Shown piece after piece: positions 7,094-50,355 of a stretch of 64,000 nucleotides of DNA. Within the stretch, counting starts at the first letter, position 1; every line of letters begins with the position of its first letter. A program made the position numbers and the translations under genes. Source of the stretch: Mesorhizobium sp. J18 (GTDB lineage Bacteria > Pseudomonadota > Alphaproteobacteria > Rhizobiales > Rhizobiaceae). Below the pieces are notes generated by a model, which saw only the letters and a list, made by a program, of their open reading frames with translations, made no database searches and was not told where the DNA came from. The DNA lies in NCBI RefSeq assembly GCF_007829525.1, contig NZ_VLJP01000067.1, forward strand, positions 64,514 through 128,513. The letters are read 5' to 3'.

Positions 7094-7365
7094 GGATGCA
7101 AGCTTACTCGCGGTTGCACTCCACGCCTGATCCGTAATAGACAGCAGTCAACCTCAGGCAAGTAGCTACGTTCAGCAGCTATGTGAGCGGAAAATTGCAT
7201 TGCAACCCCCAAGCGAATCCCATCGAGGGCTCTACCAAAAACCTGAGCTGAATGCTACGCTATAAACGATGAAACCGAGCCAGTGTGTTCCAAACGCCTC
7301 ACCAGAATTAACCCTTGGACTGTCATTCTAAGTGCTGGCTCGCCAGATACTCACCATGCTGTACC

Positions 7366-7659: not shown

Positions 7660-10600
7660 CTAGCTGATATCCATCACGTCGATCACCGTGTCGTAATCGG
7701 TGAATGAGGTATACCGGCCGCGCTGGTAGAATAGCTTGCGCATCCCTTCCGGGATATAGGGCCGGATGCAGGTCTCGCTGCCGGAGGTCAGCCGCTGGCC
7801 CGTCCAGGTCTGGCCGCCGTCGCTGGTGGTGTAGCGATAGAGGTGGTGGATGCCGTTCGTGTCGATATTGCCCGACCCGTCCACCTGCCTGCTGCAATAG
7901 ACCACATCCATATTGTCGGGATCGGTGATCACCCCGCCCGAATAGGTCTTGGTGTTGCTGTCGATGGCGCCCGGCCACCGGCCCGCATCGCAGATTTCGT
8001 GATGCACCCAGGCCGAGCCGTTCCACCGCGCCTGATGATAGCGGATGTCCATGAAATCGTCGGTCATGACCTGGAAGCAGGCGACCGGCCCCGAGCCGCC
8101 GATGACGATATCCCAGACCCACGACCGCGCCCCGGCCACCGCGTCATAGACGTGGGTCGCGTCGTTCGGCAGGTCGAGAGGCAGCGCGGACGAATTGCCG
8201 ATCAGGGTGCCGTCGGTCTTATAGAAATTCCCGCCCTGCATGTAGAAATGATAGGTGTTGTTTAGCGGCTTTGCGCCGGGATGGCCGTCATTGATCAGGA
8301 AGTCGAGCCTGTTATTGCCGTTCTGGCGCACCTTGAGATAAGGCCGGTCCGGGCCTGCGATGCGCGTGGCGGGCGTCCAGGTCGCTCCATTGTCGTCCGA
8401 TGTCGAATAGCACCAGTATTCGTCACCCAGGACGCCGGGCTCCACCACGACGCCCTCGCGGAAGACGAGATAGAGCCGGTTGCTTTCCCCCGCCAGGCGG
8501 AAGATGTTGGCATAGTTGAACGAATAGTCCGGGCCGTCATTGCGGTCGAACTGATCGGCAATGTTGACTTCCGCATCCCAGACGAGCGGATCGCCGGGAT
8601 TTGTCGAGCGGCGGATATAGAAGGTGTCGGGGACGGCGCTACCGTGATCCGTATAGGCCGCGATGATACGGCCATCGGCAAGCGTGGCAAAGGCGGGGTT
8701 GTCGTGGTCGTCCCGCTGATACTCCTTCTTGAGCACCACATGCTGCCAGTTGCCGTTGTCGAAATCGGCAGCCATGACGGAGCCGCCGCCGGTCACGCCG
8801 CCCACCACGGCCCGCGTCTGGCTCAGCGCCAGCACACGCGGATCGTTGAACCATATCCACGCGCCCGGAAACTCGCCGGTCGGCGAATAGCGCCTGAACG
8901 TCTTCAGGCTCACATCCCACTTCGCGGAAAGGTAATTGTGCAGGCGCTGGAGCGTCTGGTCGTCCACGCTTCCGATGAAGGCGATCGCCTCGCAGAACTC
9001 GCCGGTGAACCAGTTGTTGGTCGCGTTCGGGTTGCCGCCAAGATAGACGGCCGCCTCGAGCGCGTCCTGCGAAAGCTCGAGGTCCGGCAGGTCCTGGACG
9101 CCCTCGACATAATTCTGTCCATTGAAGAAATAGCGCAGATCGCCGTTGAGAAAGTCCGCCTCCACCATGGCGACGAAAAGCTGTCCCGGATTGACCGAGG
9201 GGCTGGAAACAATGGTCGAGGTGTCGCCGTCAGTCTGCCGCACAACAGCGCCCGGCGCGCTCCCAGTACCCGCTGCGCGCGGCATGTTGCCGATCGCCAT
9301 GCGCGCCGCATTGGCGTTTGCGTTGGTGCTGTGGTGGATGAGCGGTATCTGGCCCGAGGTCACATTGTTGCGCGAAACGACGATGATGGTCGCCTTGTCG
9401 CGCGCCCGCGTGAAATCGCGCCGCTGGCCGGTGAAGTAGCGTTCAGTGCTCTGGAAGGTAATGACGGACTGGCCGTTCGGGACGGTCGGGCCTTGGTCCT
9501 TCCAGATCGGGCGCTGGCCCGGCTGCGCGATGAAGTCGAACCCGTAGCCCGCCTTGTCCTTGATCAGCGCCACGCCGTCATTGTGGTTCAGGACAGGCGT
9601 CGTTCCTGCCGTGTCCTGAAAGATCGAGGTCTTGTCGGCCGCGTCCAGCCAGTAGCCCTCATGGTCGAGGAATACCAGAGCCGGCGAATAGGAGCCCATC
9701 TGGCCGAGAATGTCGCCGAGAGCGAGCAGCGCGAGACGGGTGTTGGCCTCTGCGCGGCTGACCCTCGCCTCCGTCACCGTGGCCTTTTCGACCACGAAAC
9801 GCAGCTCGGGGCGGAGAGCCTCCTGCACCGCTGCGTCGGTGAAGGACGAGACATTGCCGCTGCCTGTCGCCGAGTTGTAGAACGGCACGTCTATGGTGGT
9901 GGAGACGGCGCTGCGCCCCACCATGGGAAAACCGTAGAAGCCGAGATATTCGCCCTCATTGACCGGGATGGCGATCATGCCGCTGAGGTCGATCGAAAAC
10001 AGCCCGGCAGGGACGCTGACGACATAATCGTTGCCGACCTGCGTGAAGACATCGCCCGCCCTGGTGAAGCGCTTGATGGCAAGGCTGCCGCTCGCGAGAG
10101 CATATCCGGCAACGCGCGTCACAAAGCCGTCCATGGTGGCCGGATTGGCGAAGGCGACAGTAATGTTGCCCAGCGCCGTGGCGCTTACCGGCGTCTCCGT
10201 GGTGCCGACGACCTGCGAGACGGAAATCGCGCTATAGGCCGAGCCGAGCACCGAGCCTTGAGATTCAGACCGATCCTGAAGTTCGCCCAGATCGTCCTTG
10301 CGCAGCCACTGCCACGCGCTCTGGGAGGCAACCCAGGTGTAGATCCCCTGGTTCGGGACCGTGGCGCTGGTGACCGGATCGGTGTGCGTCCCGGCGTCAT
10401 TCTCGACATAGCCGCGCTGCCCGGCGCGCGAGCCCGAATGGGCGGACAGTTCGGCCCAAGTCGCTTTCGTGACCGTATCGCCGGAGACTTCGAGATCCTC
10501 TATCTGCGCCTGCAAGGCAGCATCGGCGTTCTGCCGGGCCGTCGCCTCGCTGTCGATCTTGCTGTCTATGCCGGCGATGCTATCTCCCAACGCATCAACC

Positions 10601-21665: not shown

Positions 21666-21705
21666 ATGTCCCTTACTCCAGCTTGGCTCAACAGGATCGA
21701 TGCTA

Positions 21706-22215
21706 ATGACCGACGTGACCGCCGTGAGGCGCCTCGATCTAAATCGATACCTTGGGCGCTGGTATGAAATCTGCCGCTTGCCCTTGAGATGGGAAGACGA
21801 GACGGCGACCGACATTACCGCGAACTACTCGCTAAACGAGGACGGGAACGTCAGGGTCGACAATAGATGCTTCGATGAAGACGGTAAGCCATCTCAAGCA
21901 GTTGGCGAGGCCGTGCCCGTTGACGATGCAAAATCTCGCCTGAAACTCACCTTCCTGCCCGAATACATCCGCTGGATACCGTTCACCAAAGCAGACTATT
22001 GGGTCCTCAAAATCGACCCCGACTACCACACGGCTTTGGTCGGCACGCCGGATCGAAAGTACCTTTGGATTCTGTCTCGCCAGCCTGAGATATCCGAAGA
22101 GACGAAAGCCGAATTTCTTGCTGAAGCCCGCCGGCAAGGTTTCGACCTTACCCATCTTATAACCCCGCGGCACACAGGCCGCGAGGTAACAGATGAAATG
22201 CTCGAGAGGGATTAG
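21706..22215 (+). CDS. Lipocalin family protein (Blc-like), cargo gene
   Basis: The 169-residue product has the lipocalin signature near its N-terminus (YLGRWYEICRLP, with the invariant Gly-x-Trp). A second conserved stretch is TDITANYSLNEDGNVRVDN, and DPDYHTALVGTPDRKYLWILSR follows, all as in bacterial lipocalins. There is no signal peptide or lipobox, so it would be cytoplasmic, unlike Blc of E. coli. The ATG at 21706 has AGGA nine bases upstream; ATG 21700 is also possible. It lies on the plus strand inside the head genes, ending four bases into the next gene. Confidence 0.8.
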   Translation: MTDVTAVRRLDLNRYLGRWYEICRLPLRWEDETATDITANYSLNEDGNVRVDNRCFDEDGKPSQAVGEAVPVDDAKSRLKLTFLPEYIRWIPFTKADYWVLKIDPDYHTALVGTPDRKYLWILSRQPEISEETKAEFLAEARRQGFDLTHLITPRHTGREVTDEMLERD

Positions 22216-22573: not shown

Positions 22574-23599
22574 TCAGGTCCTCACACCCTTCCTCAGGAC
22601 ATCGGGACGCTGCACGAAATACAGCGGATAGCTGTAGAGCTCGCCGCGCGTCCATGCCTGCCGGTCACGATCCGGGATGTTGATGGCATAGGTCTGCTGA
22701 CCCAGCGTGTTGATGTACGGGCCGAACTCTGCCGGCGCATACGCCACCTTGAACACGTCACGCGCACCAACGGGGAAGAACTTCGCCTCGTCCGTGTCGA
22801 TTGCCACGGTCGAATTGTCGTCGGTGCCCCGATAGTTGTGCCAGGTGATGCTGCCATAAACAAAGGACTGGAACGACCGATCCTGTCGCAGATCGGCGGC
22901 GGCCTGCCAGTTGATGTAGGTCTTCTCCACCTCCGGATGCGTGATCAGCGCATCGAAGAAGGCGTCGCCGACCAAGGCGTGCACCGTTGTCGCCGGGGTG
23001 AACGCGCCGCCGGCCGACCGCTGCATGGACCGGATCACCTCGGCGCACTTCAGACGCACGGCACCAGGCGCCGGCGCGGCATTGTCGAGATCGAAGTTGA
23101 TCGCGGCAGGCTCGGCCACACCGAACTCGGTGAAGTAGTTGTAGATCACCGTCGTGCCGTCGGCATCGAGCAGGAGGCCCTGCAGGGCGCCGAGGCGATG
23201 GAACTCATGGGTGAGCTCCATGTCGTCGCGGATCATCGCCATGCGGCGCAGGTATTCGGCCTGCACCTGAGCGAACTCGGTTTCCGATCCGAATGCGCGG
23301 ATGCCCTGGATCTCCTCGGCATAGAGCGTGAAGCCCTTGGCGAGGCGAACCGTCTTGAGCGGAACCGCATTGCGGGGATCGACCTCAAGCTCCTTCGGCG
23401 GTGCACCGATGGCGCTCGCGGGGATCAGGACCAGCTTGTTCTCGCGACGATCGACGAAGATCGAGCGGGTACGAACCGGCATCGGCTCGAAGATGCCGAG
23501 CGATCCAAGAAGCTGGGGCTTGTACCCGACCTTGGAGACCGCGCCGGTGAGCGAGGTCATCGAGAAGGCCGAGTTGTTGAAGATATCCATAGATGCCAT
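22574..23599 (-). CDS. Major capsid protein, lambda gpE type
   Basis: The 341-residue product matches the Phage_cap_E type (MDIFNNSAFSMTSLTGAV at the start; KTVRLAKGFTLYAEEIQG near residue 80; VHALVGDAFFDALITHPEV near 206) and has the same length as lambda gpE. A GGAGG ribosome-binding site lies eight bases before the ATG. It forms the HK97-fold icosahedral shell and follows the decoration protein and protease-scaffold genes in standard order. Confidence 0.93.
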   Translation of the reverse strand: MASMDIFNNSAFSMTSLTGAVSKVGYKPQLLGSLGIFEPMPVRTRSIFVDRRENKLVLIPASAIGAPPKELEVDPRNAVPLKTVRLAKGFTLYAEEIQGIRAFGSETEFAQVQAEYLRRMAMIRDDMELTHEFHRLGALQGLLLDADGTTVIYNYFTEFGVAEPAAINFDLDNAAPAPGAVRLKCAEVIRSMQRSAGGAFTPATTVHALVGDAFFDALITHPEVEKTYINWQAAADLRQDRSFQSFVYGSITWHNYRGTDDNSTVAIDTDEAKFFPVGARDVFKVAYAPAEFGPYINTLGQQTYAINIPDRDRQAWTRGELYSYPLYFVQRPDVLRKGVRT

Positions 23600-23613: not shown

Positions 23614-23979
23614 TTAGCGGACGATGATGCCGAGCGCCGCCAGAGCCGCGTTGGCCGTAGCCTTCGCAGCGTCATCGGCGCCAGCCTGGTAGATGAGATG
23701 CGCCCCGTTCACCTCGCAGTCGCGAACGACAATGGTGCGCTTGACCGTACCGACGGCAGCCTCAAACAGGATGCCGGCGATTGTCTGTGAGCCATCGGCA
23801 CCAGCCGGGTTGTACTGGACGTAGTTCCCGCCGGCGGTGAGCTTGCCGAGGATGGTGCCGGCGAGAAGACCAGGAGCAGTCCCAGCGGCCACCGTGCCCT
23901 CTTCCCGGCTGCGGTACATGCCGTTCGCCTCGGAGACGAGGAAATTGGCCGTGCCGCGATTTTCATTGAGCTGTGCCAT
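23614..23979 (-). CDS. Head decoration protein, lambda gpD type
   Basis: The 121-residue product resembles the HDPD/gpD family. The Gly/Ala-rich N-terminus includes FLVSEANGMYRSREEGTV, and a beta-rich core follows (GTILGKLTAGGNYVQYNP). It would bind the three-fold axes of the expanded capsid and stabilise it. It lies 14 bases before the capsid gene and 4 after the protease-scaffold gene, the lambda order. Confidence 0.88.
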   Translation of the reverse strand: MAQLNENRGTANFLVSEANGMYRSREEGTVAAGTAPGLLAGTILGKLTAGGNYVQYNPAGADGSQTIAGILFEAAVGTVKRTIVVRDCEVNGAHLIYQAGADDAAKATANAALAALGIIVR

Positions 23980-23983
23980 TGGA

Positions 23984-25114
23984 TCAGGCTCCCTTCTTCA
24001 CGCTGACGCCGGCAGCAGCGAAGACACCCTCGCCCCACGCGTCATTGGCTGCGATGGAATGGTCCTGAGTGCGGAGCGCATCGCGAACGCTGTCGTTCGG
24101 CTTGGCATCCTTGGTCAGGGCCTTGAACATGCCGGCGATCATGTCGTCCGACATATCCTTGAGCTCTTCGTCACTGAACCTGGTGGCGACGACAGCCCTG
24201 CGGATCTCGGCATCGGTCTTGCCGTCCGTGACGATCTTCTCGTCGACGGCTTTTGCCGCGGTGACGAGAGCCGCACGATCGGCCACCATGCGGTCGATGT
24301 CGGCCGGCTTCGGTGCGGCGTCCTCGAGCTTCTTCTTGTCCGCCTTGAGAGTGCCGATCTCCTCGTCTTTCGCCTTGATGGCGTCGGCGTGAGCCTTTTC
24401 GGCATCAGCAAGCTTCGTCTGGGCGTCGGCGACGGCCTTCTGAAGCTTTTCGATGGCCTGGGCGCCCTGATCGGTCGTCTGGACCGAGAGACCGTCCACA
24501 ACCACCGTACGCAGATTTTCTCCGGGCATATCCGGGTTCCTTTCGTCTGCTATGGGTTGGGTGATCGGGGCAGCGCCCCAGGTTTTCGCGCTGTCGCCAA
24601 CGCGAGCTTGTGACCCGGCCCGGGCCTTATCGACCAGGGCGAGGTGATTGATGCGGATGGACCGCTGAACGGCGTCATAGGGCTCGCCGGAGGGCGTTAC
24701 GCCTGAGGTGAAGTCGAAGTCAGCGACATAGCCGGCCGACAGTTCCCGCTTGCCGCTCTCGATCAGGCCGATAGCGGCGGCATCCTTGAAGATCAGGGGA
24801 AGCTCAACCCAATCGTCGACCTTCTTCGCCGCCGTGCTGACCTCACCGACAGACAGTGCCTTCCAGTTGTCGGCCGTGACCTGCTCGGTCGGATGGTCGA
24901 TCGTAATCGGGGCGTGGCTGAAGCTTTGCAGGCTATCCTTGGCAAAGACTTCCTCGGCCGGGCGATAAACCCGGACGATCTTCATCTCGGGCCTGCCGAG
25001 CTCATCGCCGGTATAGAGCTGGATGCCGGCGCGCACGCATTTGGCGGTGGCGACAAGATAGCCGTCACCGGTCCGCCGCGTTCCCGCGACGGTTACAGCG
25101 TCTGTGAATTGCAT
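23984..25114 (-). CDS. Prohead protease-scaffold fusion, DUF2213-like
   Basis: The 376-residue product has an N-terminal DUF2213-like protease region (SFSHAPITIDHP at about 64-75 and ELSAGYVADFDF at about 123-134). A helical, charged C-terminal half follows (about 215-300), typical of an internal scaffold. It would cut scaffold and capsid proteins during maturation. It faces the RES-domain gene across a 65-base gap. The His of the first motif and the Ser of the second are the likely active residues, by family knowledge. Confidence 0.8.
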   Translation of the reverse strand: MQFTDAVTVAGTRRTGDGYLVATAKCVRAGIQLYTGDELGRPEMKIVRVYRPAEEVFAKDSLQSFSHAPITIDHPTEQVTADNWKALSVGEVSTAAKKVDDWVELPLIFKDAAAIGLIESGKRELSAGYVADFDFTSGVTPSGEPYDAVQRSIRINHLALVDKARAGSQARVGDSAKTWGAAPITQPIADERNPDMPGENLRTVVVDGLSVQTTDQGAQAIEKLQKAVADAQTKLADAEKAHADAIKAKDEEIGTLKADKKKLEDAAPKPADIDRMVADRAALVTAAKAVDEKIVTDGKTDAEIRRAVVATRFSDEELKDMSDDMIAGMFKALTKDAKPNDSVRDALRTQDHSIAANDAWGEGVFAAAGVSVKKGA

Positions 25115-25179
25115 ATTGTTGCTAGCTCTGTTGAAAACCGCTATCGCGACCTGAGTTCACGTTCCGGGGGGAGCAACAC

Positions 25180-26073
25180 TTGAACGTCTCAATGGATTTG
25201 AACGCACAACAGATGCTCGCCAAGCAAAAAGCTATGCTGGCGGAAGTTACCCCGTCAGAATTGATGCAAAGAGTGCGCGACTTTCGCCGGAGTGAACATA
25301 GAACCCTGAACGACGAGCAACTTACACAGGAAATCCTTAAGGTCATGTCCGTGAATTCATCGGACGGCAGCCAAAGGGCATTTCTTAAAATTCACGTCAC
25401 AGAATTTCCAACTGGAACACTATTCTTTCGAGCTCGCCGCGCGGAGGATAGTTCGATACCGCCGCAAACAGGCACAACCATAAGAGATTCAGAAGCTCCT
25501 GACGGCTCATTGGTCAGAAGACCAGGCAGACTGCATAAAATCGGGGAGTCCGTATTATACACGGCAATACATGACCCCCACATCACGTTGTCCGAATGCA
25601 GGATACCTGTCGGCAGCCACGCCGTAATTTTTGCATACAAAGCAAGACGGTCTATCAAGGCTCCTATAATAGGAGCCACAGAGCATGGATCGGAATTTAC
25701 CGATGAAGAAAAGCTGAAGCTTAATATTATCAACGATTTTCTGCACGATGAATTCGCTCGTGAAGTCGAAGTGGGACTTGAGCACCTATACCGTTCGTCG
25801 GAAATCATTGCGAAATGGTGGTTTGACGGGCCACCCGAGCTGCAGGATTGCTGGGTTTATTCTTCCACCAAAAATCGGCAATCACTGAACGCCGCCTTCC
25901 GGCCAATGAAAGCTCACGAGTGTTTAGATCTCGTTGGATCCATCTTGGTGCGGCGCATTGGGGAGAACCAGATGCAATGTTTGTCTGTCGGCAAGCCAAA
26001 CAAGAAGAAGTTTCAGTACTTCCCAATTGGTTCACCCGAACAGAAAGTTCTATTCCCTCAGATCGGTGCTTAG
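25180..26073 (+). CDS. RES-domain-containing protein, cargo gene
   Basis: The 297-residue product contains a stretch resembling the RES domain of NAD+-degrading toxins. It has FFRAR at 82-86, GRLHKIGESVLYTAIHDPHITLSE at about 116-139 (Glu139), and DCWVYSST at 223-230. These supply candidate Arg, Glu and Ser residues in the family order. The TTG at 25180 is preferred because GGGGGGAG lies six bases upstream. It lies on the plus strand between protease and portal genes, is AT-richer, and its 3' end overlaps the portal gene by 24 bases. No antitoxin lies beside it. A defence or exclusion role is only a possibility. Confidence 0.65.
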   Translation: MNVSMDLNAQQMLAKQKAMLAEVTPSELMQRVRDFRRSEHRTLNDEQLTQEILKVMSVNSSDGSQRAFLKIHVTEFPTGTLFFRARRAEDSSIPPQTGTTIRDSEAPDGSLVRRPGRLHKIGESVLYTAIHDPHITLSECRIPVGSHAVIFAYKARRSIKAPIIGATEHGSEFTDEEKLKLNIINDFLHDEFAREVEVGLEHLYRSSEIIAKWWFDGPPELQDCWVYSSTKNRQSLNAAFRPMKAHECLDLVGSILVRRIGENQMQCLSVGKPNKKKFQYFPIGSPEQKVLFPQIGA

Positions 26074-27414
26074 GTCTGCCGCCTCGATATCCTCCTCATC
26101 CTCCTCCTGCTCGGCCAGCGTGCCATATTTCTTGATCGCAGCCTCGAGGCCGGCCAGCGTCCCATCCTCGACCAATTCCGAGACAAAGGCGTCGGATAGA
26201 GCTTCGACCGGCATCAGCGGGCTTTCCATGCCACCCTTGCCGGCGATCGTCCTGGCCGCGTCAGACTTGGCCTTGAAGATCTCCGCCCTTTCCTTCTCGC
26301 TCATTTGCCAGAGCGGGTTCCATACGTAGTGGATGTCCGGATCGCGGGTGCCGAGAGCCGAGCGGATCAGGCATTCGTCCAGGTTCGCCAGTGCCGGCTG
26401 CATCTCCAGTGTCTGCCCCGAGGCAATCCGGTCATAGTAGTTGCGAAGATCAGCCTCGCCCGTAGCATTCAGTCCGCCCGGCGACATGCCGAACAGGCGT
26501 GTCATCGGGATATCGGCCGCGCCGCTGACGTTCTGAAAGAACCGATCCATCAGCTCATGCAGGTTGGTGAAACTGGCCGCCTTGCGCTCGTACTTCTCCT
26601 TGCCGTCGAGGATGAGCATGCGGTTGATGCTCTTGCCCGTCGCTGCGATCCTGTAGCGGTCCGTGACCTTCCTCTCGCCGTCGGGCGTGCCGACATAGGC
26701 CATCAGGCCTTCCATCGTGACGACATCGACATTCGCCTCGAAGATCAGGCTGGCGATGTTGGCCGACGTGCTGTCGGCCTGCTTCACCGCCTCCAAGACC
26801 GAGGTAAGAACACTATCGCCCCATGCATAGGAAGCGCCAGAAGTGATATCCCGATCCGGCAGCTCGTTGCCGATAAAGATGGCGAGCCGAGACGGATGGA
26901 TCTTGGCCTGGGCCGCTGTGCCGCTGACGACGGTATACTCCTTCGGCCGGCCATAGAGCGGTGACAGAGGATCGGTCTCGATCTCGCCCGGCTGCAACTG
27001 CCGAGGCGTGAGAACGGTCAAGAACCTAACGCCCCCTGCCCTTACCTTCTCGACATTCAACGGCTGCGAGGCATCATCGCCGAGATCGAAATAGATCGCT
27101 GCACCGCCGAACAACCTTGCCTTCTTCCGCGCCTCGAGAACCTTGCCTTGGACGCCTAACCTCGTCTCCTCCTCTTCCAGCTTCTCGATCTGCGGGTTCT
27201 TGGCCTGCCAGGACCGCCAGGCGCGGCAGCTATCCAGCGCCGGGATGTCGATGATCTTCCGAGGCAGCCAGGAGGTGCGATAGGCTGCAACGAGCTGCTG
27301 CAGGTCAATCGTCGGATCGGTGTAATAGACCGTCGCTGCCTTGTCCCGCTCGGTTCCGAGCCCTGCTATGGCGCTTGCGAGGCCGTCGCGGACGAAGGTC
27401 AGAATATTGCCCAT
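26050..27414 (-). CDS. Portal protein, DUF1073 type
   Basis: The 454-residue product fits the DUF1073 portal group. It starts MGNILTFVRDGLASAIAG, has RTSWLPRKIIDIPALDSCRAWR near residues 45-65, and PMTRLFGMSPGGLNATGEAD near 300-320. It forms the 12-mer DNA channel at one capsid vertex and docks the terminase. It follows the terminase gene by seven bases. Its C-terminus is acidic, and its last 24 bases overlap the convergent RES-domain gene. Confidence 0.9.
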   Translation of the reverse strand: MGNILTFVRDGLASAIAGLGTERDKAATVYYTDPTIDLQQLVAAYRTSWLPRKIIDIPALDSCRAWRSWQAKNPQIEKLEEEETRLGVQGKVLEARKKARLFGGAAIYFDLGDDASQPLNVEKVRAGGVRFLTVLTPRQLQPGEIETDPLSPLYGRPKEYTVVSGTAAQAKIHPSRLAIFIGNELPDRDITSGASYAWGDSVLTSVLEAVKQADSTSANIASLIFEANVDVVTMEGLMAYVGTPDGERKVTDRYRIAATGKSINRMLILDGKEKYERKAASFTNLHELMDRFFQNVSGAADIPMTRLFGMSPGGLNATGEADLRNYYDRIASGQTLEMQPALANLDECLIRSALGTRDPDIHYVWNPLWQMSEKERAEIFKAKSDAARTIAGKGGMESPLMPVEALSDAFVSELVEDGTLAGLEAAIKKYGTLAEQEEDEEDIEAADLSTDLRE

Positions 27415-27421
27415 CCGTGCC

Positions 27422-28933
27422 TCACAGGTTGTCCAGGTTCATGCCGAGGAAGCCGCAGATATCCAGTGCGGCATCAATGAAGGGGTCGACCTGATCGTCG
27501 AATCCGCCATCGGGAAACGCCGCCAGTTCATTCTCGAAGTCTTTCAGCCACAGGGCCGATTTGGGCAGCACAATGAGTCCAGCCGCGGCCGCCGGCACCA
27601 CGTCCAGTGCGCGGGTGTATTTGTCCCTCTCGCGCTGCATCGCGATCACCGGGATCGCCTTGCGGGTGAGCGACTGGATCAGCCCCGTTCCAGAAACTTT
27701 GTCCTCGATCACCATCTTGCGAAGATGACCGTACCGATCGGCAGGCCAATCATCACCGCGAAGGCGCGTCCACAACGCGAAGGCGGTCTTCTCTAGCTCG
27801 GGCGCCTCGAACCGGTCGCGCACCACCTCGAGCAAGTAGGCTCGCCCGTCTACCCCGGCGCCCCAATGCTCGAAGACCGTATAGTCGTTCCGTTCCTTCG
27901 TCTTCTGCGCCGTGTCGACGTAGATCGCCCGCCAGGAGAGCTTCGGCACTTCGTCATACCGAGGCAGCAGACCCGGCTTGAACAGGTTGCCGCCCTCGAC
28001 TGTCGGCTCCTGCGCATACTGGCCCGCATAGACGTGCGGTGCACCCTGTAGGACCTTGATCTGATCGAGGGTGTGCTTCTCCTCCCACAGCGGGCCGTCG
28101 GGAAGGCCGTGCGGGATCAGCGTCACTTTCCCCGCCGGCGCCTTGCCCTCGCCCTCAACGAGCACAGGCAGCTTCAGCAGATGCCAGTGCTCGCCCGAGT
28201 TCTCCAGCAGGTGGGCCACGAAGTCATCGATATGCAGCCGCTGCATGATCACGATGACCGGCACGTCCTCATGCGCCAGACGCGACCTGAAGGTGTTCTC
28301 CCACCGCTCGTTGATGAACTTCCGCGTTGTATCCGATGACGCATCGTCAGGCTTCAGCGGATCGTCTATGACCAGCGCGCCTGTGAAGCCCGGTTCGGCA
28401 AGAATGCCGGCACGAAAGCCCGTGATCGGCTCACCCGCCGCGGCCGCTCTCAGATGCCCGCCGTCAGTCGTGCGCCATAATCCCTTGGCGTTTGTATCGA
28501 CACGCATCCTCACCGGCCAGTGCGCCTGATAGCCCGGCAGGTTGATGACGTCCTTGACCTTGGTCGAGTTGTCCAGCGCCAGCGGCTGCGCATAGCTGGC
28601 GTGAATGAACCTCGAGCGAGGATTGATCGCAAACCCACGGGCGATGAAGTTCACCACCGCCAGTTCGGTTTTCCCGTAGCCAGGCGGGATGTTGATGATC
28701 AGCCGGTTGATATCACCGGTGAATACCTGATCGAGCGTGTCGCAAACGACGGGATGAAACGGGGCAACCGAGAACGGCTGGCCTTCCTTCTCCCGGAAGA
28801 ACTTCTTGGTGAAGGCCAGATGCGAGCCGAGCAATTCCTTCCGCTCAGCCTTGCGATCGGCCTCAGTCCTCCTCGCCTCCCTCTCGGCCCTGATCGCCGT
28901 CAACAATTCCGATCTGGACAAGTGCACGTTCAA
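27422..28933 (-). CDS. Terminase large subunit
   Basis: The 503-residue product has a Walker A element PPGYGKTE at 83-90, a Walker B element ALVIDD at 186-191, and nuclease-domain acidic residues in YVDTAQ (Asp340), VIEDKVSG (Glu410, Asp411) and DDQVD (479-483). It packages DNA and cuts concatemers. The start is uncertain: the listed TTG at 28933 overlaps the small subunit gene by 71 bases. GTG 28927 or TTG codons near 28921 and 28909 are alternatives. Confidence 0.93.
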   Translation of the reverse strand: MNVHLSRSELLTAIRAEREARRTEADRKAERKELLGSHLAFTKKFFREKEGQPFSVAPFHPVVCDTLDQVFTGDINRLIINIPPGYGKTELAVVNFIARGFAINPRSRFIHASYAQPLALDNSTKVKDVINLPGYQAHWPVRMRVDTNAKGLWRTTDGGHLRAAAAGEPITGFRAGILAEPGFTGALVIDDPLKPDDASSDTTRKFINERWENTFRSRLAHEDVPVIVIMQRLHIDDFVAHLLENSGEHWHLLKLPVLVEGEGKAPAGKVTLIPHGLPDGPLWEEKHTLDQIKVLQGAPHVYAGQYAQEPTVEGGNLFKPGLLPRYDEVPKLSWRAIYVDTAQKTKERNDYTVFEHWGAGVDGRAYLLEVVRDRFEAPELEKTAFALWTRLRGDDWPADRYGHLRKMVIEDKVSGTGLIQSLTRKAIPVIAMQRERDKYTRALDVVPAAAAGLIVLPKSALWLKDFENELAAFPDGGFDDQVDPFIDAALDICGFLGMNLDNL

Positions 28934-29231
28934 GAAGTTCGAGCTCCTGATCCGTCATGCCCTTGAGTTTGGTGACGTCCATCGTCTGGATTGGCCCACC
29001 ACCGCGGCCGGTGTGCTGCATGGAGGCCAGCTTTGGATGGACATAAGGGGCTGCGGCCTTGGCCATGTCATCGCGCCTACCAGCATCTGCTTTCGGATCA
29101 CGCATCACCTTCAGCATGTAGTCGAGCGGAGTGATCCCCGTTGCCGCTACCTTCTTCTGGCGCTCGATCGAAGCCTTATTCGGTGTGCCGGGCTTCCGCC
29201 CTGCACCATCTCTCTTGCCACCACGTGCCAT
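28863..29231 (-). CDS. Terminase small subunit
   Basis: The 122-residue product begins MARGGKRDGAGRKPGTPNK, the basic N-terminus typical of a group of small terminases, followed by a helical region. It would recognise the packaging site. It precedes and overlaps the large subunit gene. Only 52 bases separate it from a divergent cargo gene, so either that gap holds the late promoter or late genes are read through from the early operon. Confidence 0.8.
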   Translation of the reverse strand: MARGGKRDGAGRKPGTPNKASIERQKKVAATGITPLDYMLKVMRDPKADAGRRDDMAKAAAPYVHPKLASMQHTGRGGGPIQTMDVTKLKGMTDQELELLERALVQIGIVDGDQGREGGEED

Positions 29232-29283
29232 CTTTGATTTTCTGTCGCGGGGTTTGATAGTTTTTCAAAGGGAGGGCGGAAAG

Positions 29284-29565
29284 ATGAGCTATCTCATCGG
29301 GTATGATCTAAATCGCGAGGGCGAAAACTACTACGCAAGGAACAAAGCCCTTCGCGATCATCTTAAAGAGAAATACCCCACCTATTGGGCTCACTTGGAT
29401 TCCACGTTCATTGTCGTCACCGACCTGACCGCCAAGCAGATTCGAGACGATCTGCTCAACTATGTTGACGACAACGATGAGCTTCTTGTCGTCGCCCTCA
29501 CAGGCGTGGGTGCGTGGCACGGAATTGCCGACAACGGGAGCAAATGGTTGAAGGACCACCTTTAG
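29284..29565 (+). CDS. Cas2/VapD-like (SinR family) protein, cargo gene
   Basis: The 93-residue product begins MSYLIGYDLNREGENY and contains WAHLDSTFIVVTDLTAKQIR and NDELLVVALTG. That is the pattern of small SinR-family proteins with a Cas2/VapD-like ferredoxin fold. The ATG at 29284 has GGGAGGG about seven bases upstream. No CRISPR array or Cas1 lies nearby. It faces the terminase genes and precedes an HNH-like gene by 40 bases, possibly in one transcript. A nucleic-acid-directed role is suggested by the fold only. Confidence 0.7.
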   Translation: MSYLIGYDLNREGENYYARNKALRDHLKEKYPTYWAHLDSTFIVVTDLTAKQIRDDLLNYVDDNDELLVVALTGVGAWHGIADNGSKWLKDHL

Positions 29566-29605
29566 ATCCGTCCCGCTGAACCGCTCGCTTGAGTTGACTG
29601 CGGCG

Positions 29606-30349
29606 ATGGCGAAGCGCTCATGTATCTTCTGCGGCGCACCCGGGCCTCTCACGCGTGAGCATGTGATCCCGCTATGGCTCCAGCACTATGTTGGCGGTAG
29701 CGAAAAGGGTAGCCTCCGCGGCACTCATATGAGTTGGATCGGAGTGCCGCTGTCGGAACGGGTCGCTAGCGGCAACTCTCACACACTCGGCTCTGTCTGC
29801 TCTTCCTGCAACAATGGGTGGATGTCTCGTTTAGAGAGTGGTTTTCGGGCACTGCTTCCCCGACTGCAGGCTGACATATCGCCGCGCTGCTTTTCGAAGG
29901 CGGAAAGGTATACGATTGCAGCCTGGATCACGAAGACCGGTGTGGTTGCTCATCGAAGCGCTAACTACCGCTCCATTCTTCCTGCCTCGCTACCTCGCGC
30001 TCTGTCACAAGGCTCCAGCATTCCCGCCGGGATTAAAGTGATCGCTGGCAAGGTAGAGGCTGGGAAGACCATACAGTGGGCTCAATCGAATCTCGGTTTC
30101 GGGCTTGTACGCAAAAGCCACCTACCATTTTACGACGCCAAACAAACATTCGTGTTTGTGCTCTCGATCGCGGACGTGTTCCTTGGCTTTGGCTGGCATG
30201 GGTTGAGCAACAGGATGTTCGAGATCTTTCACTCGGGGGACTCGACACATCAAATCTACCCCCACCCAAAGCTGGCAAGGCATATCCGCAAGTTCGATCA
30301 CCTGGCAATTGCCCCGACCGAGATCGGGTTGCGCTCCAAGGATATCTGA
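29606..30349 (+). CDS. HNH-like zinc-finger protein, cargo gene
   Basis: The 247-residue product has an N-terminal zinc-site pattern, CIFCGAPGPLTREHVIP (Cys6, Cys9, Glu18-His19) with CSSCNNGW (Cys65, Cys68, Asn69) following, as in HNH-type endonuclease folds. The rest (about 90-247) has no recognised motif. The ATG at 29606 is used; a TTG at 29594 is possible and neither has a clear ribosome-binding site. It lies next to the Cas2-like gene on the same strand. It may be a nuclease or a nucleic-acid-binding protein. Confidence 0.6.
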   Translation: MAKRSCIFCGAPGPLTREHVIPLWLQHYVGGSEKGSLRGTHMSWIGVPLSERVASGNSHTLGSVCSSCNNGWMSRLESGFRALLPRLQADISPRCFSKAERYTIAAWITKTGVVAHRSANYRSILPASLPRALSQGSSIPAGIKVIAGKVEAGKTIQWAQSNLGFGLVRKSHLPFYDAKQTFVFVLSIADVFLGFGWHGLSNRMFEIFHSGDSTHQIYPHPKLARHIRKFDHLAIAPTEIGLRSKDI

Positions 30350-48970: not shown

Positions 48971-49153
48971 ATGAGCCGGGCGCTTGCTCTCAACCAGCGC
49001 CAGATTCGCGCTCTATGCGAGGGCGCGAAAAAGGCCGGATATGCACCGATCGTCCAGATTGGCAACGTGCTGGTGCGGCTTGTCCCCGAAGATCGCGCTA
49101 TCCCTCCACAGGACAATGAGCGGATTGACGAGGAAAGGGTGATTGATCTTTGA
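48971..49153 (+). CDS. Small protein before integrase, possible excisionase
   Basis: The 60-residue product begins MSRALALNQRQIRALCEGAKKAGY, with a helix-turn-helix-like run, and continues into a short beta pattern (VQIGNVLVRLVPED). Its position directly before integrase and its size fit an excisionase, but no MerR-like motif is clear. Confidence 0.5.
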   Translation: MSRALALNQRQIRALCEGAKKAGYAPIVQIGNVLVRLVPEDRAIPPQDNERIDEERVIDL

Positions 49154-49161
49154 GGGAAGTC

Positions 49162-50247
49162 ATGCCCCGCAAGCTGCCCCTCTATGTCTCGATTGAGACC
49201 ACCCGCCACGGAAAGAAGGTGGCCTATTTCCGGCGCGGCAAGGGCCAGCGGATTCGGATGCCGAATGCTGATCCGAGCAGCAAGGCGTTTAAGGACGCCT
49301 ATGAAGCAGTGCTTGCGGGAGATGCCGCGCAACGGCCCACAGGCGACCGTGCAGCGGCTCCAAAATCTCTCCGGTGGTTGATACTCCGCTACAAGGAAAG
49401 CGCGTCGTGGAGGCAGCTATCGGACGCCACGCGCTATCAGAGAGACAAGATATTCGAGAAGGTTGTCCAGAAGTCAGGGAATGAGCCGTTCGCGGCCATA
49501 GACAAGCGCACAATGCAACGCGCAATGGATAAGCGGGCAGACACGCCAGCGCAAGCGAACAGCTTCCTGAAAGCCATGCGCGGCCTGTTTGACTGGGCTG
49601 TGCGCAACGATCAAGTCACATCCAATCCCTGCGATGGCGTCGAACGCCTTAGAGACAAGACTGACGGGATTCCGGCTTGGACCGTTGATGATGTGATCGC
49701 CTTCCGGGAGAAGCACCCGATCGGGACAAAGCCGCGCCTTGCTATGGAATTCATGCTTCTGACGGGCTTACGCCGTGGCGACATGGCAACCGTTGGCAGG
49801 CAGCATATCCGCGATGGCGTCCTGACCTTGCGGACGGGCAAGACGGGCACAGTGATAACCATCATCCTGCCGCAGTACCTTCTCGACATGATCGATGCCA
49901 CGCCGATCAGCGGAATGCACCTGATAGGGCAGGACAATGGAAAACCCTACACGGTAGAGAGCTTCGGGAACAATTTCCGGGATTGGTGCGACGAAGCGGG
50001 CGTGACGAAAAGCGCCCATGGCCTGCGTAAGCTATCGGCCACACTGGCGGCGGAAGGTGGCGCGGCCGCTCACGAGCTCATGGCCCAGTATGGCTGGACG
50101 AAGATGTCCATGGCTGAAATTTATACCAAAGGTGCCGACAGAGTGCGCCTCGGCATCAAGAATTCTGCCATCGTCGCGGAGCAGATCGGGAACATATCGC
50201 CCCGCACCCATAATTCCGGTGCGGGGAATGTCGCGAAAAAAGCTTGA
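49162..50247 (+). CDS. Tyrosine recombinase / phage integrase
   Basis: The 361-residue product has a core-binding domain (about 65-160) and a catalytic domain with Arg204 (TGLRRGD), Lys227 (RTGKTG), His286 and Arg289 (HGLRK), Trp312 and Tyr321 (EIYTK). It integrates and excises the prophage. The ATG at 49162 has GAGGGAAG four bases upstream; a TTG 12 bases earlier is less likely. It reads towards the tRNA-Leu gene 23 bases away. Confidence 0.93.
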   Translation: MPRKLPLYVSIETTRHGKKVAYFRRGKGQRIRMPNADPSSKAFKDAYEAVLAGDAAQRPTGDRAAAPKSLRWLILRYKESASWRQLSDATRYQRDKIFEKVVQKSGNEPFAAIDKRTMQRAMDKRADTPAQANSFLKAMRGLFDWAVRNDQVTSNPCDGVERLRDKTDGIPAWTVDDVIAFREKHPIGTKPRLAMEFMLLTGLRRGDMATVGRQHIRDGVLTLRTGKTGTVITIILPQYLLDMIDATPISGMHLIGQDNGKPYTVESFGNNFRDWCDEAGVTKSAHGLRKLSATLAAEGGAAAHELMAQYGWTKMSMAEIYTKGADRVRLGIKNSAIVAEQIGNISPRTHNSGAGNVAKKA

Positions 50248-50270: not shown

Positions 50271-50355
50271 TGGTGCCCCTGGCCGGGATCGAACCAGCAC
50301 TCCTTGCGGAACTCGATTTTGAGTCGAGCGCGTCTACCAATTCCGCCACAGGGGC
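50271..50355 (-). tRNA. tRNA-Leu (anticodon CAA)
   Basis: The minus strand gives an 85-base tRNA beginning GCCCCTG and ending CAGGGGC ACCA, with D-arm GCGGAATTGGTAGACGC, anticodon arm CTCGA-CTCAAAA-TCGAG (anticodon CAA), a short variable arm and T-arm GCTGGTTCGATCCCGGC. The gene is intact and its 3' end faces the prophage. Confidence 0.95.

Follow-up and report, generated by a model that had tools for sequence, protein, structure and literature searches.

The RES-like gene analysed here lies between the head maturation protease and portal genes of a prophage, in a slot that related prophages fill with other cargo, and encodes a protein whose structure model most resembles RES toxins. With middling confidence, we read it as a prophage cargo gene for a stand-alone, ADP-ribosyltransferase-like RES-fold enzyme that would defend against superinfection by consuming NAD+ when triggered by infection. 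The modelled fold and the conserved residues make an NAD+-using enzyme likely, and we put forward a role in defence because of the slot in which the gene lies and the genes found beside its relatives, both of which favour it. In the proposed mechanism, the lysogen would produce the enzyme in an inactive form, with no need for an antitoxin, infection by another phage would switch it on, and it would then cleave NAD+, presumably as an NAD+ phosphorylase or NADase, such that the infection is aborted.

The window (the whole stretch of DNA analysed, 64,000 nucleotides) contains the following features relevant to the gene and its setting:

22574–23599, minus strand: major capsid protein (Phage_cap_E) gene
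23614–23979, minus strand: head decoration protein (HDPD) gene
23984–25114, minus strand: head maturation protease (DUF2213) gene
25115–25179, no strand: gap of 65 bases between divergent start codons, left breakpoint at the protease ATG
25166–25173, plus strand: ribosome-binding site GGGGGGAG, read directly, 6 bases 5′ of the TTG
25180–26073, plus strand: RES-like gene, 297 amino acids, TTG start, from ORF, alignment and AF2 model
26050–26073, no strand: tail-to-tail overlap of 24 bases between the portal and RES-like genes, marking the right breakpoint (~26077)
26050–27414, minus strand: portal (PF06381) gene, without the C-terminal Acb1 domain common in relatives
27422–28933, minus strand: terminase large subunit gene
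49150–50247, plus strand: integrase ORF (PF00589 match at contig positions 114197–114649), adjoining a tRNA gene, at the right prophage end
50271–50355, minus strand: tRNA-Leu(CAA), the likely integration site

The RES-like gene is read on the strand opposite to the terminase, portal, protease, decoration and capsid genes. A sequence-only reading of the window had proposed an ORF with a good ribosome-binding site between the protease and portal genes, and both are present; the ATG at 25192 was rejected as an alternative start, its distance to the ribosome-binding site being too great. A chance ORF was ruled out by full-length homologues of the protein, which occur at 30–37% identity in many genomes, by purifying selection in pairs of family members and by the confident structure model described below. 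A scan around the gene for sigma-70 promoters and intrinsic terminators, covering promoters of the sigma-70 type only, found none. Elsewhere in the prophage, a lipocalin gene (21700–22215, plus strand; PF08212, E 4e-48) likewise runs opposite to the head genes, and a copy 76% identical to it lies downstream of the capsid region in a related locus (L074); lipocalin genes have been reported in phiLM21-like Sinorhizobium prophages (PMC12429752). Two further plus-strand ORFs lie beside the terminase genes (29131–29565 and 29594–30349), one matching phrog_1090 (E 4e-18) and the other phrog_38451 (E 2e-11) and, weakly, HNH_5.

Comparison with related phages delimits the inserted DNA. The window portal is similar to its relatives through codon 446 and similarity returns at the protease ATG, from which the first 46 bases are identical in the window phage (L072) and L073. 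Portal codons 447–454 and the stop codon fall within inserted DNA, and the 24-base overlap is therefore an insertion scar, whereas it had been taken as a sign of long co-residence, a view that the end of the relatives' similarity at codon 446 does not support. The GC content is ~0.49 in the insert and ~0.62 in its flanks. Together with the opposite strand and a site that is empty or differently filled in relatives, this agrees with the moron-type insertion suggested by the same reading.

We surveyed this junction using 15 portal loci and at least 80 more from a profile scan, which gave 85 junctions with both portal and protease, 78 after deduplication (L088, L089 and L097, on the same contigs as L074–L076, were left out). 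Among the matches listed, portal ORFs were either 592–622 amino acids long and ended in an Acb1 domain, or 449–475 amino acids long and lacked it, with the outliers L079, cut by a contig end, and L142 (689 amino acids). Pfam recognised Acb1 in the four portal C-termini tested (E 5e-31 to 9e-44), and one of these four additionally resembled Acb1 7t26 and the Pam3 portal 8hds. Acb1 is anti-CBASS, and in its portal-fused form it may be delivered with the virion. The fusion is seen at 7300–7827 of L074, and also in L075, L078, L079 and other portal loci.

Among the matches listed, at least 200 bases separated the portal from the protease in 42 of 43 junctions with an Acb1-minus portal, compared to 22 of 35 with an Acb1-plus portal, the remaining 13 having fewer than 200 (Fisher p 6e-5, 78 deduplicated junctions). 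For the same set of matches listed, the longest ORF in gaps of at least 250 bases lay on the opposite strand in 43 of 60 cases, on the same strand in 6, with 11 undecided; junction ORFs of at least 130 amino acids were opposite-strand in 29 of 31 cases and same-strand in 2, and gaps of at least 400 bases had a GC content below that of their flanks in 42 of 42. The 68 cargo candidates among these listed matches formed 48 clusters, with the RES-like gene occurring in the window phage only.

Cargo proteins were scanned against Pfam and PADLOC for 24 of the 68 candidates, and five were scanned separately, one of which (L073) was among the 24 as well. In the resulting tallies, where two names may share one protein, Pfam gave SLATT_5 in three of the 24, putAbiC in two, DUF4145 in two, and DUF6161, Trypsin_2, ankyrin, Imm45 and solute-binding protein in one each, with a few weak rows besides; PADLOC gave RTasSLATT in three, and PDC-S45, PDC-M72A, AbiZ, AbiP, AbiC and others in one each. 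The separate scans identified DUF6161 in L076 and NYN in L075, and nothing useful in L073, L079 and L085. The cargo is only partly defence-like, the rest consisting of a solute-binding protein, ankyrin repeats, Imm45 or unmatched proteins. In L075, the NYN-type cargo gene (8081–8664) appears as two overlapping frames, perhaps a frameshift. At the same junction, the long portal of phage Yong-M2-251 is followed by an opposite-strand endonuclease II gene together with hypothetical genes of either orientation, no gene is annotated in phiPSA1, and RHph_TM3_3_3 carries a gene in the same orientation. A phage recorded from Synechococcus (L178, OM868082.1) has a portal ~90% identical to that of the window prophage, and its recorded host may deserve a check.

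The portal–protease junction of these related prophages is an exchangeable cargo slot, and in the window phage, which is without Acb1, the slot is filled by the RES-like gene. Because cargo orientation is so uniform, we propose an antisense off-switch, in which the prophage's own late-operon transcription would run through the RES-like gene and may turn it off at induction. A wider generalisation, which we regard as unlikely, is that RES-fold enzymes, known mainly as toxins of toxin-antitoxin pairs, also make up a widely distributed anti-phage family in which a single gene supplies its own sensor, and that, within this phage group, one slot is contested between such genes, along with other defence genes, and a portal-fused anti-CBASS domain. 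A phage would then tend to be armed either against host immunity, by way of the virion, or against rival phages, through expression in the lysogen, and the near-fixed opposite orientation would let late transcription silence the cargo at induction.

The structure of the RES-like protein was modelled with AF2 on 24 family members (mean pLDDT 92.3, pTM 0.87). Absence of a RES fold in structure prediction had been named in advance as grounds for abandoning the proposal, and the fold was recovered: the top VIA-align rows were all RES toxins, at Z 9.0–10.2, comprising ParT (Z 10.2, rmsd 3.4, 147 residues aligned), MbcT (Z 10.1, rmsd 3.0, 151 aligned), NatT (Z 9.7, rmsd 4.1, 170 aligned), VPA0770 (Z 9.5) and P. 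putida RES (Z 9.5 and 9.0), followed by SAIP (Z 8.3) and diphtheria toxin (Z 7.4), where rows no more than 1 Z apart count as tied. The first eight Foldseek rows were RES proteins and one SAIP chain (E 0.011–0.053), and the Foldseek search of the model against the PDB had no row with E below 0.001; the hits of a BFVD structure search were for the most part uncharacterised proteins of giant viruses and phages. We conclude that, as modelled, the protein has a RES/ART-type fold.

At the sequence level, Pfam, PHROGs, NCBIfam and PADLOC gave no significant match to the RES-like protein, and the PF08808 (RES) profile gave none to the window protein at E up to 1, placing it below the curated cut-off, with weak PF08808 matches in 2 of 24 members (best E 0.009). 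A PDB sequence search with the family alignment, A2, produced one chance match only (E 1.6), and one with the host's own canonical RES protein produced no match; not included in A2 were L010, whose protein is that of L014, the broken or partial copies L033, L035 and L036, and the plasmid records L007 and L008. The closest proteins by pairwise sequence are HEPN-RES proteins, which match window residues 82–160 at 35% identity and carry PF08808 at 5e-20 and 8e-19. Furthermore, in an hhalign comparison with 29 canonical RES proteins, the RES motif aligned with R117, Y127, E139, S229 and N237 (E 0.006, probability only 6%). Mapped onto the gene, the regions and candidate residues, with conservation among the aligned members, are:

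25183–25347, plus strand: N-terminal helical region, residues 2–56, from model secondary structure, outside the range aligned to RES toxins
25387–25974, plus strand: RES-fold core, residues ~70–265, from VIA-align rows for ParT, MbcT, NatT and P. putida RES
25429–25437, plus strand: R84 and R86, candidates for the first catalytic Arg, 23/24 each, Lys in one member
25528–25530, plus strand: R117, counterpart of the GGRWN Arg, 24/24
25558–25560, plus strand: Y127, counterpart of the RES Tyr, 24/24
25594–25596, plus strand: E139, E of RES, 24/24
25864–25866, plus strand: S229, S of RES, 24/24
25888–25890, plus strand: N237, counterpart of NatT N193 by motif, 24/24

The RES pattern of a candidate Arg, Glu139 and Ser, initially noticed in the single protein, therefore holds in the family, with E139 and S229 found throughout. 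The active site of NatT consists of R23, R82, Y93, S184 and N193 (PMC11535050), for which motifs and spacing point to R84 or R86, R117, Y127, S229 and N237 as candidate counterparts. By spacing, K231 would take the position of the phosphate-binding R186 of NatT, and it is variable among members; because this Arg has no conserved counterpart, phosphorolysis is possibly not the chemistry, and NAD+ phosphorolysis in particular appears doubtful. The lack of conservation of this Arg would also suit an enzyme that ADP-ribosylates a specific protein or nucleic acid, in defence or host control, instead of draining NAD+, as would the top rank of ParT (entry title: Prs ADP-ribosylating toxin; Z 10.2) and the presence of N-terminal helices, a helical insert (residues 175–214) and a C-terminal extension that could bind a target. 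However, MbcT and NatT fit equally well, their rows being tied with that of ParT, and no target is indicated; we consider ADP-ribosylation possible, if somewhat unlikely. In the RES rows of VIA-align, the aligned range begins at residue 68–80, and the residues before ~70, the helices at 175–214 and the C-terminus look like additions to the RES core in the model. For the NAD+-consuming defence enzyme that we prefer, these added regions are candidate sensors.

No partner gene was found that could restrain the protein. With only 65 bases between the divergent protease and RES-like start codons, and with the 3′ end of the RES-like gene overlapping the portal gene, the locus leaves no space for such a gene. 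Clustering of 533 ORFs of at least 50 amino acids from 29 loci (the window being L009) revealed no neighbour common to the loci, apart from those of one phage group and a scattering of small families, confirming that there is no obvious antitoxin, as the sequence-only reading had remarked. An adjacent Xre/MbcA/ParS-like antitoxin gene, which defines a RES-Xre type II module, was present neither at the window locus nor as a shared gene among the 29 loci. We therefore regard it as distinctly improbable that the protein is a toxin for addiction or for maintenance of lysogeny, restrained by an RNA that escaped notice or by an antitoxin from another locus, for instance the one in the host's own RES pair: no recurrent ORF of at least 50 amino acids lies beside the members, which persist across five phyla without a common partner. 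Consistent with such a toxin, RES domains occur mostly in toxin-antitoxin systems (PMC11535050), regulation of solo toxins in trans has been suggested (PMC2701414), and the host's own canonical RES gene has a likely partner, an ORF 5 bases upstream that, judged by reading its sequence, resembles an Xre-type antitoxin.

Members of the RES-like family are sparse. Relatives were found on Alteromonas and Listeria plasmids, in five viral contigs (the window's included) and at 23 genome loci, the latter by an alignment-based scan; a single-sequence scan of the genome contigs found no relative, and a scan of a phage collection with the RES-like protein found no match. Matches occurred in 5 of 297 genomes in a Rhizobiaceae survey, two of them full length (one in the window's own genome), and in 5 of 385 genomes in a class-level survey, full length only in the window's own, which was also the single genome among 61 to contain the DNA of the locus itself. 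In a tree of 26 members, which come from five phyla, the window protein pairs with an Ensifer member, both on long branches. In three member pairs dN was much lower than dS (dN 0.110 and dS 0.805, 0.061 and 0.755, and 0.169 and 2.58, respectively; dS was not computable for three further pairs). These long branches, the presence of E105 and H119 in the window protein where other members have Trp and Asn, respectively, and the existence of broken or partial copies (L033, L035 and L036) could indicate a passenger that now has little effect, or a member that diverged and became inactive. However, the window protein keeps all candidate catalytic residues and other member pairs are under purifying selection, which makes this reading quite improbable in our judgement.

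The genes beside other members include both phage and defence functions, the neighbours scanned having been picked by eye (15 proteins outside phage loci and L016). In L011–L013 the members are neighbours of lambda-like tail genes and run opposite to them, and in L016 a Prophage_tail gene is close by; the Ensifer member belongs to a prophage and has, as read by eye, terminase-, portal- and capsid-like genes nearby that run opposite to it. In L020 (7974–13035), hsdS and hsdR of a type I restriction operon enclose two adjacent genes, the member on the hsdS side and a second RES gene (PF08808, E 2e-14) on the hsdR side. In L023 (4402–11908), it lies between HmaA and HmaB, with overlaps of one and four bases by our ORF calls, placed as if it were a third gene of the Hma operon. 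Other members are found downstream of a type III restriction gene (L025), near an Mrr-type gene (PDC-M58A; L032) and ahead of an AbiQ gene (L008). Most other member loci have no obvious defence gene alongside.

There is prior work on RES toxins, solo toxins, morons and phage defence hotspots (PMC11535050, PMC2701414, PMC9122126), and phage-borne RES-HTH pairs have been described (PMC9503650). According to the NatT paper, a part in immunity has yet to be ascribed to any RES toxin-antitoxin system (PMC11535050); a solitary RES-fold family in prophages, a type I restriction operon and an Hma operon makes such a role directly testable. Our literature search, among the matches listed, returned no description of the RES-like family or of a portal–protease slot with Acb1 exchange. 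The slot, beside and inside the portal gene, offers a mapped place to seek further anti-phage or anti-defence genes in related prophages.

Among known systems, the phiLM21-like Sinorhizobium prophages (PMC12429752) share their size range, tRNA integration and a lipocalin gene with the window prophage, which suggests, by the description of that group, that the latter is phiLM21-like; a RES gene or a portal–protease slot is not mentioned in the accessible text of that paper. HEPN/RES-NTD1–RES proteins (PF18870 plus PF08808) are multi-domain RES proteins and the closest by sequence over residues 82–160, but their N-terminal PF18870 gave no match in the window protein. With the RES toxins of RES-Xre modules (ParT, MbcT, NatT and P. 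putida RES), the RES-like protein has in common the fold and the order of Arg, Tyr, Glu, Ser and Asn, whereas it differs from them in having no Xre antitoxin, in its length (297 amino acids compared to chains of 145–250), in its helical additions, in falling below the Pfam RES profile and in the phosphate-binding Arg, which is not conserved. The pairing of a member with a canonical RES protein inside the type I restriction operon of L020 recalls PrrC in PrrI. Finally, the P2/P4 phage defence hotspots, as described in PMC9122126, are likewise fixed phage loci with exchangeable anti-phage genes, whereas the slot in the window lies between portal and protease, belongs to another phage group and involves exchange with a domain of the portal itself.
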